The notes beneath the pieces were generated by a model. That model saw only the letters and a program-made list of their open reading frames with translations. It searched no databases and had not been told where the DNA came from. Both the position numbers and the translations under genes were made by a program. Of a DNA stretch of 64,000 nucleotides, positions 3,830 to 8,850 are shown piece by piece. The DNA is from an uncultured Methanobrevibacter sp. (GTDB lineage: Archaea; Methanobacteriota; Methanobacteria; Methanobacteriales; Methanobacteriaceae): contig NZ_CADAJR010000005.1 in assembly GCF_902788255.1 (NCBI RefSeq), positions 1 to 64,000 on the forward strand. Direction: 5' to 3'. Within the stretch, counting starts at the first letter, position 1. The number at the start of each line of letters is the position of its first letter.

Positions 3830-5053
3830 ATGCAATACAGAATAATCAAAAAAACAGGCGATGAGGTCTCTTCCCTGGGTTATGGTGCAATGAGACTGCC
3901 TTTGAAGAACGGAAAGATTGACAGACAAAAGGCTTCCGAACTTATTTATCATGCAATTGATAATGGGGTCAATTTTATAGACACCGCATATCTCTATGGG
4001 GATAGCGAGAAGTTTTTAGGTGAGATACTGCAGGGTGAGTACAGAGATAAGGTTAAGATATGTACCAAACTTCCTTCAATTCATGTTAGAAAGTATGAGG
4101 ATATGGAATACTTTCTGGATGAACAGCTGAAAAGACTTCAAACCGACTGTATAGATTATTACCTTGTTCATTCCGTTGATTTGAAAACCGTCAACAAACT
4201 GCTCAAGAAAGGCTTGATTGAATTTTTAAACAAGGCCAAAAGTGAGGGCAAGGTCAAGCATGTAGGATTTTCATATCATGGTGTCAAGGAGGAATTTGAC
4301 CTTCTCATTGACGGTTATGATTGGGATGTTGTAATGGTGCAGTACAACTATTTTGATGAAAATGTTCAGGCAAGCGTTGAAGGCATTGAATATGCAGCTT
4401 CAAAGGGCATGGGTGTTTTTGTAATGGAGCCTTTAAAGGGCGGAATTCTTGCAGGAAAAATGCCTAAGGAAGCTGAAGAAATATTTGCCAAAGCGGATTC
4501 AAATAAAACAACTGCACAATGGGCAATGCAATGGGTTTTGAACAACCGAAATGTCAGCTGTGTCTTTTCGGGGATGAATTCCATGGACCAGTTGGATGAC
4601 AATTTGGCCGTTGCCGATACAACCTCTCCGATGTCAATGACATTTGAGGAACTGGAAACTGTTGAACTGGTTAAAAGGGTCATGAAAAATGCCTTGAAAA
4701 TCAACTGTTCGACCTGCGGATACTGCATGCCATGCCCTCGTGGTGTAAATATTCCGGAATGCTTAAAGATTTACAATGAAAAGTATTTGTTTGACCATAA
4801 GGGTTTTATAAATGAATCATTCATGGATTATTACCAGTATGTCGGAGGAATTATGGGTAAGGCAGGAAATGCCGGTTTGTGCAATGGATGTGGAAAGTGC
4901 CTTAGAAAATGTCCACAGAAACTGGATATAATTTCCGAGCTTAAGAAGGTCAAAAAGGAATTTGAATTGCCTGGTTTGAAATATATTCTGCCTGTTGCAA
5001 AGTCAATTGGAATTCCTGCATATTCATATATTGTAAAGCTTTTAAATCGTTGA
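3830..5053 (+). CDS. Aldo/keto reductase with two C-terminal 4Fe-4S sites
   Basis: A 407-residue protein. The N-terminal two thirds form an aldo/keto reductase TIM barrel: LGYGAMRLPL at 19-28, the catalytic Asp and Tyr in FIDTAYLYG, Lys in KICTKLPS and His in YYLVHSVD. The C-terminal part adds CSTCGYCMPC (CxxCxxCxxC) and CNGCGKCLRKCP, both ferredoxin-like cluster sites. This is the oxidoreductase family common in anaerobes, whose physiological substrate is not known. The clusters suggest electron exchange with ferredoxin rather than NADPH alone. It lies 95 bases after galU; no hairpin separates them, so they may share a transcript. Confidence 0.85.
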   Translation: MQYRIIKKTGDEVSSLGYGAMRLPLKNGKIDRQKASELIYHAIDNGVNFIDTAYLYGDSEKFLGEILQGEYRDKVKICTKLPSIHVRKYEDMEYFLDEQLKRLQTDCIDYYLVHSVDLKTVNKLLKKGLIEFLNKAKSEGKVKHVGFSYHGVKEEFDLLIDGYDWDVVMVQYNYFDENVQASVEGIEYAASKGMGVFVMEPLKGGILAGKMPKEAEEIFAKADSNKTTAQWAMQWVLNNRNVSCVFSGMNSMDQLDDNLAVADTTSPMSMTFEELETVELVKRVMKNALKINCSTCGYCMPCPRGVNIPECLKIYNEKYLFDHKGFINESFMDYYQYVGGIMGKAGNAGLCNGCGKCLRKCPQKLDIISELKKVKKEFELPGLKYILPVAKSIGIPAYSYIVKLLNR

Positions 5054-5108: not shown

Positions 5109-5318
5109 ATGAAATTGGAAGAATTAATAGCACCGTGTCCAAAATGCGGTTCAAAAGATAAGGTAGCTCACAGAAAAATGTTAGACAATCACAGGGCTCA
5201 TGCGGAAATGGACACTGTTAAATGTGAAGAATGCGGATACATATTCTTCGTAAATGAAAATATGGATCCTGATGAGAAAAAACAACTATTAAATGAACTA
5301 AACAAGATACACGGTTAA
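5109..5318 (+). CDS. Small CxxC protein, TIGR04165-like partner/substrate of radical SAM enzyme
   Basis: A 69-residue protein with APCPKCGSK (Cys 10 and 13) and VKCEECGY (Cys 39 and 42), plus a central stretch rich in His, Lys and Met. Four Cys in two CxxC pairs would make a zinc ribbon. The length and the position, with its stop one base before a radical SAM/SPASM gene, match the methanogen-specific family TIGR04165, which is described as the predicted target of a partner radical SAM enzyme. The assignment to that family is from memory. An alternative reading is a plain zinc-ribbon accessory protein. The RBS is GGTG 6 bases before the ATG. Confidence 0.7.
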   Translation: MKLEELIAPCPKCGSKDKVAHRKMLDNHRAHAEMDTVKCEECGYIFFVNENMDPDEKKQLLNELNKIHG

Positions 5319-5319
5319 A

Positions 5320-6444
5320 ATGACATTTCATGTAATGATTATCCCTACACTTAATTGTCCATCAAATTGTAAATATTGTTGGGGATCTGAAAATAAGAAA
5401 GAAATGATGGATTTTGAAATAATAGATCAAATTGTTGAATGGTTAAGTGATTTTAGAGATGATAAGGTTCACTTCACTTTCCACGGTGGGGAACCTCTCC
5501 TTGCAGGTTATGACTTTTATAAATATTCCCTGGAAAAATTATCAACATTGGAAAATCTGGAAGGGTTTTCACTTCAAAGCAACATCTGGCTTTTAACAGA
5601 GGAGATGATTGACCTCTTTTTGGAGTATGGTGTTGTTGTAAGTACAAGTATCGACGGACCAAAGGAAATCAACGATTATCAGAGGGGAGTAGGTTATTTC
5701 GACAAGACAATGAAGAATTATGAACTCGCTAAAAGCAAGGGACTAATCATTAATTTTGTTTTAACTGTAACTGATTATTCAAAGGATTTCTCCGATGAAT
5801 TGTATGAATTCTTTAAGGGAGAAAAGATGAACCTGAAAATCCATGCTGCATTGCCTTCACTTAGAGGGGATAATGCCGATCCGTGGGCACTTGACCAGGA
5901 AGAGCATGGAAAGCTCCTCATAGAATGGCTGGATAAATACCTATATGATTTGGATAAGTTTACAATCATGGATCTGGACCATATCTGCAAATCTTCCCTG
6001 AGAAGACGTGGAACATTATGTACCTTTGCAGACTGTATTGGAACAACTTTGGCTGTAGGCTCAGACGGTTCGATATATCCTTGTTACCGTTTTGTTGGAA
6101 TGCCTGAATATGTATTGGGTAATGTCGCAACCAATCCTAGTTTTGATGATTTAAAACAGTCTGATGCATGGGCAAAACTCATGGAATTCAGAGAATATGT
6201 TGATGAAAACTGCAAAAAATGCAGGTATGTCAAATATTGCGAAGGAGGCTGTCCTTATAATGCAATTGTTGCATATCAGACTCCGCAGGCGGTTGACCCT
6301 CAATGTACCGCTTATAAGATGATTTTCGGTGAGGTTTCCAAAAGGATGAATAAGGAATTTGCAAAATCCGCATTTGGTATGGGTGCGCCTGCTGCCAGAA
6401 AAGAGGGAGACCCGTTCAGCATTATGGATTTGGCAATGAAATGA
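5320..6444 (+). CDS. Radical SAM/SPASM peptide-modifying enzyme (TIGR04083-like)
   Basis: A 374-residue protein. The radical SAM cluster motif CPSNCKYC (Cys 13, 17, 20) lies at the N-terminus and is followed by FHGGEPLL, the SAM-binding glycine-rich motif. The C-terminal SPASM/twitch region has CTFADC with GSIYPCYRF, then CKKCRYVKYCEGGCPYN and a final DPQC, enough Cys for two auxiliary 4Fe-4S clusters. SPASM enzymes modify peptides or proteins (thioethers, C-C links, epimerisation) or act as anaerobic sulfatase maturases; no sulfatase is nearby. The gene starts one base after the 69-residue CxxC protein, so translation is probably coupled, and the peptide is the obvious substrate candidate. 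Confidence 0.85.
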   Translation: MTFHVMIIPTLNCPSNCKYCWGSENKKEMMDFEIIDQIVEWLSDFRDDKVHFTFHGGEPLLAGYDFYKYSLEKLSTLENLEGFSLQSNIWLLTEEMIDLFLEYGVVVSTSIDGPKEINDYQRGVGYFDKTMKNYELAKSKGLIINFVLTVTDYSKDFSDELYEFFKGEKMNLKIHAALPSLRGDNADPWALDQEEHGKLLIEWLDKYLYDLDKFTIMDLDHICKSSLRRRGTLCTFADCIGTTLAVGSDGSIYPCYRFVGMPEYVLGNVATNPSFDDLKQSDAWAKLMEFREYVDENCKKCRYVKYCEGGCPYNAIVAYQTPQAVDPQCTAYKMIFGEVSKRMNKEFAKSAFGMGAPAARKEGDPFSIMDLAMK

Positions 6445-6459
6445 TTAAATTGTGATATT

Positions 6460-6585
6460 ATGATTTGTGATGACTGTGAACATTTGGAATTTAGAAACAA
6501 ATACAAAATAATCTGTAAGATGCATGATGGGCTACTGTTGGATGTCAAACAGTGTATGAATTTCAAACCTTCTAAAAAAGAATAG
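6460..6585 (+). CDS. 41-residue Cys-containing peptide after the radical SAM gene
   Basis: The ATG at 6460 opens a 41-codon frame that begins MICDDCEHLEFRNKY and ends FKPSKKE. Cys lie at positions 3, 6, 19 and 32, a CxxC-x12-C-x12-C spacing. It starts 15 bases after the radical SAM stop codon and its TAG stop lies inside the stem of a terminator hairpin, so it looks like the last gene of the unit. It has no signal peptide. It resembles small metal-binding proteins; whether it is a second substrate, a cluster or zinc carrier, or unrelated cannot be told from sequence. It was found by reading the gap and could be missed by length cut-offs. Confidence 0.65.
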   Translation: MICDDCEHLEFRNKYKIICKMHDGLLLDVKQCMNFKPSKKE

Positions 6586-6609
6586 TTTTGCTATTCTATC
6601 TTTTTTTTA
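6577..6609 (+). terminator. Hairpin terminator ending the radical SAM unit
   Basis: GAATAG pairs with CTATTC around TTTTG, then TATCTTTTTTTT. The left arm contains the TAG stop of the 41-residue peptide. Confidence 0.75.
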
Positions 6610-6801: not shown

Positions 6802-8850
6802 GTGATTGATGAAATAACCGATTTTCTGTTTGGCTTGAAAATGACTATTCTCTCAGGTATATTTCTATTGATTGCTGTAATATTTATGATATTTGGAATT
6901 AACACTCCTGTTTACTTAAATCCTGCATGGGGAACAGTAATTATAAGTGGAATTCCAATGTTACTTCTTGCAATGACAAGACTGATCCGTGAAAAATGGA
7001 TTTCATCTGCGCTACTGATTGCAATTGCAATGGTGGCGTCACTTTTTATAGGTGAAATATTTGCCGCAGGTGAAGTTGCATGGATTATGGCATTAGGTGC
7101 CCTTTTGGAGGACTGGACAGTTGAAAGGGCTAAAAAAGGTTTAAGAAATTTAATTAATTTGACTCCACAAACCGGAAGAAGGATTGTGGATGGTGTAGAA
7201 GAAATCGTTCCGGTAGATGATATAAAAATAGGAGATACATTAAGAATCCTTCCAGGTGAAAACGTACCTGTCGACGGTGAGATAGTTAAGGGTACAACAT
7301 CTCTTGACCAGTCAATCATGACTGGTGAATCATTGCCAATAGATAAGGAAGTGGGTGATGATGTATTTTGTGGAACAATGAACATGTACGGAGCTATTGA
7401 CATTAAGGCAACCAGTTTAGATGAAAACTCTTCACTTCAAAAGCTGATTGATCTTGTAAAGGCCGCTGATGAAAAGCAGGCTCCAACCCAAAGGATTGCC
7501 GATAAATGGGCAACATGGTTGGTTCCAGTTGCATTGATTATTGCAATTGCTGCATGGTTGATTACTGGAAATATTGAGCGTGGAGTGACCGTTCTGGTTG
7601 TATTCTGTCCATGTGCATTGATTCTTGCAACACCAACTGCAATCATGGCTGCAATCGGTCAGGCAACAAAATATGGGGTACTGATTAAGTCAGGTGAGGC
7701 CCTGGAGACACTGGGTGGACTTAATACTATAGTGTTTGATAAGACTGGAACATTAACTTACGGTAATTTAGAAGTTTCTGATGTTATCTCTTTAAAAGAT
7801 GATTTGACTGAAGTTGACTTGCTTAAACTCACAGCATCCTGTGAAAAGTTAAGTGAACATCCATTGGCTAAAGCTGTTGTTAATAATGCAAAAGAACTTA
7901 AAATAGATATTGAAGAACCAAAAGATTTTAAGATGTATCCTGGAAAGGGTGTTTCATGTAAAAATTCTTATGGTCAGATATATGCAGGTAACTCCAAATT
8001 TATCAAAGAAAATAATATTGAAGTAAATGTTGATGACAGTTTAAGTCAACTGAAAAACGAAGGTAAAGCTTCAATAATCGTTGCATTAGATGGTGAGGTT
8101 GTTGGATTGATCGGATTATCTGATGTGATACGTGAAGATTCCAAAAGCATGATTGAAAGTTTACATGAATTGGGAACTGACTGTATATTGCTCACAGGAG
8201 ATAACCCAGAAACTGCTAATTACTTCGCTTCCCAGGTTGGAATAAGCAAGGTTCACGGTAACCTGCTGCCACAGGAAAAACTCGACTGGATTGAAAAACT
8301 CAAAAATGAAGACAAGCAGGTATGTATGATTGGTGATGGTGTTAATGATGCACCAGCTCTTAAAACAGCCAATGTGAGTGTTGCAATGGGATCTATGGGA
8401 AGTGATGTGGCAATTGAAGCTGCAGACATTGCGCTTTTAGGTGACGATATCGGAAAAATACCTTACCTTAAAAAATTATCAAACTCAACATTGTTTACAA
8501 TTAAGGCGAACATTGCAATGTCAATGACAATCAATGCGGTTGCAATAATATGTTCAGTGCTCGGATTATTGAATCCGGTTACAGGAGCTATTGTGCATAA
8601 TGCAGGATCTTGTCTGGTTGTATTGAATGCGGCTTTGCTGTATGACAGACATTTCGACGATTCAATCAAAAAAATAGACTCACAGAATGTTGAACATTCC
8701 CACTATCATTTCCACAATGACGGTGAGCATTCCCATTCTCATGAGGGTATAACCATTTTGGATGAAATTGAAACAGAAAATGGAATCAAGCATATGCACG
8801 CACATAAGCATGAATTGAACAGACAAAGTTGTGAACCATATCACAACTAA
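6802..8850 (+). CDS. Heavy-metal P1B-type ATPase with His-rich C-terminus
   Basis: A 682-residue membrane pump. It has the P-type hallmarks: TGES actuator motif, CPC metal site in a membrane helix (Cys 269 and 271), phosphorylated Asp in DKTGT (Asp 313), the HP motif SEHPLAKAV, and GDGVNDAPAL. The last membrane pair carries NPVTGAIVHNAGS. The CPC site means a soft transition metal (Cu, Zn, Cd, Co or Mn class); the HN-x-GS helix is not the classic CopA or ZntA form, so the ion is left open. There is no N-terminal HMA domain. Instead the C-terminus carries about 13 His in HSHYHFHNDGEHSHSHEG and later HMHAHKH, a likely metal-sensing or buffering tail. The start is GTG with AAGGTG 5-6 bases upstream. 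A duplicated promoter element precedes it. Confidence 0.88.
   Translation: MIDEITDFLFGLKMTILSGIFLLIAVIFMIFGINTPVYLNPAWGTVIISGIPMLLLAMTRLIREKWISSALLIAIAMVASLFIGEIFAAGEVAWIMALGALLEDWTVERAKKGLRNLINLTPQTGRRIVDGVEEIVPVDDIKIGDTLRILPGENVPVDGEIVKGTTSLDQSIMTGESLPIDKEVGDDVFCGTMNMYGAIDIKATSLDENSSLQKLIDLVKAADEKQAPTQRIADKWATWLVPVALIIAIAAWLITGNIERGVTVLVVFCPCALILATPTAIMAAIGQATKYGVLIKSGEALETLGGLNTIVFDKTGTLTYGNLEVSDVISLKDDLTEVDLLKLTASCEKLSEHPLAKAVVNNAKELKIDIEEPKDFKMYPGKGVSCKNSYGQIYAGNSKFIKENNIEVNVDDSLSQLKNEGKASIIVALDGEVVGLIGLSDVIREDSKSMIESLHELGTDCILLTGDNPETANYFASQVGISKVHGNLLPQEKLDWIEKLKNEDKQVCMIGDGVNDAPALKTANVSVAMGSMGSDVAIEAADIALLGDDIGKIPYLKKLSNSTLFTIKANIAMSMTINAVAIICSVLGLLNPVTGAIVHNAGSCLVVLNAALLYDRHFDDSIKKIDSQNVEHSHYHFHNDGEHSHSHEGITILDEIETENGIKHMHAHKHELNRQSCEPYHN

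Follow-up and report, generated by a model that had tools for sequence, protein, structure and literature searches.

We have examined a three-gene cluster of Methanobrevibacter in which a known but uncharacterised pair of genes, encoding a zinc-ribbon-like protein of family TIGR04165 and a radical SAM/SPASM enzyme of family TIGR04083, is followed by a third gene. We observed that this third gene is a genuine protein-coding gene under clear purifying selection, that its distribution is limited to a single, mostly ruminant-associated clade within one of the 19 genera, and that it is dispensable within that clade, where an unrelated gene may replace it in the same slot. Relatives found elsewhere suggest that its product, designated C41, with 41 residues and four Cys, is a small accessory that binds Zn or an Fe-S cluster, and not a RiPP precursor with a leader. 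Our best guess for the pair itself is that the enzyme would modify the TIGR04165 ribbon in the cytoplasm.

The window (the whole 64,000-nt stretch of DNA analysed) carries the three genes on the plus strand, with the ORFs, spacing and Cys pattern that the sequence-only reading of this DNA had described. The 69-residue TIGR04165 protein (nucleotides 5109..5318) contains two CxxC motifs, C10-C13 and C39-C42, and its ORF stops at 5318, one base ahead of the ATG at 5320 of the 374-residue enzyme (5320..6444). The C41 ORF (6460..6585), with the Cys pattern C3-x2-C6-x12-C19-x12-C32, ends in a TAG (6583-6585). This codon forms part of the 5' arm of a hairpin that is predicted at 6579-6597 (fold energy -7.0 kcal/mol, z -2.5), and a T8 run comes after the hairpin, so that the stop codon does lie in an intrinsic-terminator-like element (6579..6608, plus strand, predicted fold), as had been claimed. 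At least two stop-codon bases are paired in the 5' arm of a similar predicted hairpin in 17 of the 27 C41 orthologs described below. Upstream, the gene for an aldo/keto reductase with a C-terminal 4Fe-4S domain (3830..5053, plus strand; Pfam PF00248 and Fer4_9) lies 55 bases from the TIGR04165 ORF, and the same neighbour is present in four genus-mates (L171-L174). The next gene downstream, behind the terminator, encodes a heavy-metal P-type ATPase (6802-8850), and a similar 682-residue gene follows in L173. Examination of the ORFs of the region, together with a family search of the flanking genes, revealed no transporter, exporter, protease or leader protease gene in the cluster, in agreement with the earlier reading. 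Elsewhere in the window, a 524-residue ORF (1215-2789) whose product is repetitive and rich in Asn and Gly, with a hydrophobic segment at the N terminus, appeared adhesin-like by eye.

The assignment of the first two genes to the TIGR04165/TIGR04083 pair, which the sequence-only reading had made, was borne out by the NCBIfam models, against which both proteins scored far above the cut-offs and in the usual gene order. The 69-residue protein is a full member of TIGR04165 (methano_modCys; 87.7 bits, cut-off 60, model positions 1-50 of 50), and the 374-residue protein is a full member of TIGR04083 (rSAM_pep_methan; 589 bits, cut-off 300, model positions 1-375 of 376); the third gene is an addition that is in neither model. 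Among 18 diverse TIGR04165 members, residues C10, P11, C13, G14, D17, K18, C39, C42, G43 and F46 are invariant. In a second TIGR04165-like paralog (L163-L166, L136), an insert of ~10 residues or more separates the CxxC pairs, and the neighbouring genes are different.

We surveyed the pair in 151 Methanobacteriales genomes, mostly metagenome assemblies, of which 90 were good; absence of the pair from incomplete genomes was left uninterpreted, because neighbouring genes disappear together at contig ends. TIGR04083 was found in 84, and TIGR04165 in 85, of the 90 good genomes, in each case in 19 of 19 genera, and the pair is by this measure near-universal in Methanobacteriales. A search of the open literature by the two family names returned no paper naming either. 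The genes are adjacent in most genera examined and unlinked in Methanosphaera-like genomes and some other genera. In the Methanosphaera-like genomes (L155-L158, L141, L153, L168), the enzyme gene is located 3' of an ABCE1-like gene, and TIGR04165 lies away from it in a run consisting of a SWIM-type protein, TIGR04165, a ferredoxin and a geranylgeranyl-reductase-like gene (all of these neighbours being named from sequence). Outside Methanobacteriales, TIGR04083 was not found in the only other genome examined from the same phylum, and Methanosarcina acetivorans has a TIGR04083 match and no TIGR04165 match.

The enzyme consists of Pfam domains PF04055 and PF13186, with a radical SAM CX3CX2C motif formed by C13, C17 and C20 and eight SPASM Cys (C234, C239, C255, C298, C301, C307, C311 and C329); all 11 of these cluster Cys are invariant among 84 orthologs. 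Its AlphaFold model (pLDDT 91) is nearest in the PDB to the anaerobic sulfatase maturase anSMEcpe (4k36-4k39; TM 0.80-0.82), followed by CteB and ChlB. The enzyme is a three-cluster SPASM protein with a predicted fold like that of anaerobic sulfatase maturase, and it resembles anSMEcpe also in size, in both sets of Cys and in having no N-terminal RRE, as concluded from the start of the radical SAM domain at residue 7. The two enzymes differ, however, at the position following the 'YPC' sequence, where Tyr256 is invariant in 84 of 84 orthologs and anSMEcpe has Asp (YPCD) at the aligned site. The Asp following YPC is the catalytic base in anSME, a role for which our literature search on the anSME base residue returned no support. 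The window enzyme also differs from anSMEcpe in having its own C-terminal tail (residues 368-374, IMDLAMK; 6421..6441, plus strand), which is conserved across Methanobacteriales with the consensus [FY][ST][IV]MD[IL]xMK in most members: M369 and D370 are found in 81, and K374 in all, of the 84 orthologs. Mean pLDDT values of ~60 for residues 351-360 and ~89-90 for residues 361-374 predict a poorly ordered linker and, past it, a confidently placed docked helix.

The maturases of SCIFF and ranthipeptides (CteB, PDB 5wgg, and PapB) are likewise SPASM enzymes that adjoin Cys-containing small proteins, and the motif YPC[HY]xFVG is common to CteB and the window enzyme. In contrast to those systems, the window enzyme has no RRE, its neighbours are ribbon-like and have no leader, and its scores are far below the family cut-offs (for NF047865, the PapB-type ranthipeptide maturases, 121 bits against a cut-off of 340, E 5e-35).

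That C41 is a real gene, and as the sequence-only reading supposed not a chance frame, can be seen from its orthologs, which are present in a further 26 genomes of the genus (27 with the window) and lie directly 3' of the enzyme gene wherever the latter is assembled; in G056 the contig stops short of that gene. C3, C6, C19 and C32 are invariant in 27 of 27, as are D4, R12, Y15, I17 and L26 to K30. Substitutions among the 27 orthologs are distributed over the three codon positions as 2616:1065:5225, and mean pN/pS is 0.175, compared with 0.083 for the enzyme in the same genomes. No NCBIfam model matched C41, which places it, as had been suggested, outside the described pair, and the best solved structural relative had an E value of only 1.1. 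Because the structure model of C41 is of low confidence (pLDDT 58), the proposed metal binding is argued from the Cys pattern. C41 has no leader of the RiPP kind, its first Cys being at position 3 in every one of the 27 orthologs. We rejected a read-through fusion of enzyme and C41, the two being in frame in the window and not in L063, and also kinship of C41 with TIGR04165, for which hhalign aligned 10 columns at a probability of 18%.

Conservation of C41 across Methanobacteriales, which the sequence-only reading had proposed as a check, was not borne out. A profile search of the order revealed no further orthologs, and a scan of genome contigs gave 22 loci, all Methanobrevibacter, many from ruminant samples and one from M. 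millerae SIG13. In a tree of 84 enzyme sequences, made by a quick method and with 31 of its 80 inner branches open, the 25 rows with C41 all fall inside one group of 44 rows; by regular expressions and tblastn at the slot, 8 rows of this group have an RyR-like gene in place of C41 and 11 have neither. The RyR-like gene (93 residues), so named from a sub-threshold Pfam match (E 0.003-0.005), is at the same distance 3' of the enzyme in nine genomes (L177, L184-L187, L190, L193, L194 and G077:C167), the ninth of which, G077, is outside the tree. It is broken in two of them (G059 and G080), never occupies the slot together with C41, and has homologs elsewhere in genomes. In G042, a 19-nt exact match at the right place is the relic of a C41 gene beside an intact enzyme gene, and C41 has been lost at least once. 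The presence of C41 changes at least 10 times on the enzyme tree, 2 of these changes being forced by starred branches, and the number of losses is uncertain. We found no enzyme residues associated with the presence of C41 (the highest phi was 0.41, and shuffling gave a median maximum of 0.40), and a physical partnership between C41 and the enzyme is on that account not supported.

The nearest family to C41 in Pfam is DUF7140 (PF23601), of about 42 residues, which C41 matches weakly and over nearly its full length: the window protein scored 16 bits against a gathering score of 27, the best E among C41 members was 0.0011, and 12 of 26 matched at 0.1. DUF7140 matches in methionyl-tRNA synthetase-like proteins were set aside as unrelated Zn motifs. 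The weak DUF7140 search also led to small four-Cys cousin proteins, such as MDEKECYNCKHMEFDISLCTQYYCRFHEKLVKIDDRCDDW, and a profile built from three of these matches 27 genomes in two genera, Methanobrevibacter and a related genus, g9 (28 loci, L223-L250). In an hhalign comparison (E 1.7e-5, probability 79%), the four Cys of C41 all align with Cys of the cousins, which also share with C41 the elements Cys-x2-Cys-x2-[LM]-E, Cys-x2-H-E and Cys-x-[ND]-[FW]; they differ from C41 in having two residues more between the second and third shared Cys, and one extra Cys. When we judged by eye the ORFs of 80 residues or more that were listed around the 28 loci, over stretches of up to ~3 kb, no radical SAM enzyme was seen among those listed; many of the g9 cousins adjoin a mevalonate-kinase-like gene, and a motif script recovered the cousin sequence at 17 of the 28 loci. 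It is mainly because the cousins read in this way lie away from the enzyme gene that we view C41 as, probably, an autonomous four-Cys, metal-binding protein.

The explanation to which we give slightly less than an even chance, and around which we arrange the others, is that the TIGR04165 ribbon undergoes a radical modification inside the cell and that C41 is a clade-specific accessory. The TIGR04083 enzyme would covalently alter the TIGR04165 protein, its candidate substrate, by a radical-dependent reaction in the cytoplasm. Sulfatase maturases recognise their target directly, and the TIGR04165 protein might similarly be recognised with neither leader nor RRE. C41, as the last gene of the cluster and presumably part of one transcript, would fold around a single metal (Zn) or Fe-S site that has the four Cys as ligands, and may work alongside the enzyme in an accessory role, such as that of a redox partner or a metal/cluster handler; that C41 comes and goes while the enzyme stays fits such an accessory. 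Against the enzyme-substrate proposal are the unlinked genes in Methanosphaera-like and some other genera and the M. acetivorans enzyme with no TIGR04165 match; also, TIGR04165 looks like an ordinary zinc ribbon and could work unmodified.

Alternatively, C41 would be a passenger with no functional link to the enzyme, in an exchangeable slot for small genes at the cluster's 3' end. The contents of the slot (C41, the RyR-like gene with its two broken copies and its occurrences elsewhere, or nothing) and the decay of C41 next to an intact enzyme in G042 are consistent with this explanation, but C41 is kept in the slot in every genome with the enzyme assembled beside it, was found nowhere else in Methanobacteriales and is under purifying selection, and we consider a passenger somewhat unlikely. 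Unlikelier still, in our view, is that C41 is a second substrate, a role which the sequence-only reading had suggested next to that of a carrier; one or more of its Cys would then be cross-linked through a thioether or otherwise changed. Such a role is possible, given the constant position of C41 3' of the enzyme, its four invariant Cys, the occurrence of D or E four residues after C19 in 27 of 27 orthologs, which is the CX3D spacing of PapB (PMC10470005), and the place of PapB among the better family matches of the enzyme. However, C41 has no leader, no enzyme residue tracks its presence, more than 100 genomes that do not have C41 nevertheless conserve the enzyme, and cousins with the same Cys layout and Cys-x3-E spacing are located away from the enzyme gene; these observations favour the autonomous metal-binding protein, and the spacing may be due to chance, given the abundance of acidic residues in C41.

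The same spacing is the basis of a broader proposal, which we think distinctly improbable, that TIGR04083 modifies small four-Cys proteins generally in Methanobacteriales, cross-linking a Cys to the acidic residue four positions on and yielding cross-linked intracellular metal-site proteins in place of secreted peptides. Cys-x3-acidic sequences are present in TIGR04165 (C13-x3-D17), in C41 (C19-x3-[DE]23) and, as Cys-x3-E, in the cousins, and PapB cross-links a CX3D spacing (PMC10470005); we treat the likeness as a lead only, because it was noticed post hoc and because TIGR04165 and C41 are both rich in acidic residues. Least probable of all, and very much so, is a role of the enzyme in sulfatase maturation or on a target resembling a sulfatase, with the small neighbours unrelated to it; action on such a target was one of the outcomes by which the sequence-only reading was to be refuted. 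Although anSMEcpe provides the best solved relatives and fold matches, and the match to TIGR03942 (anaerobic sulfatase maturase) has an E value of 3.4e-50, the score of 171 bits is below the cut-off of 349, an invariant Tyr stands where anSMEcpe has Asp, and no PF00884 sulfatase was found in the genome of the window at E 1e-5.

The new elements in this work are the third gene and its cousins, the slot with its exchangeable contents, and the conserved tail of the enzyme with its predicted docking. Through C41 and its slot, close relatives differ naturally in gene presence or absence, and the tail is a concrete feature for mutation. The Methanobacteriales include major gut and rumen methane producers, and if it is true that the ribbon is modified, the pair would represent, in this order, a core modification of an intracellular protein.
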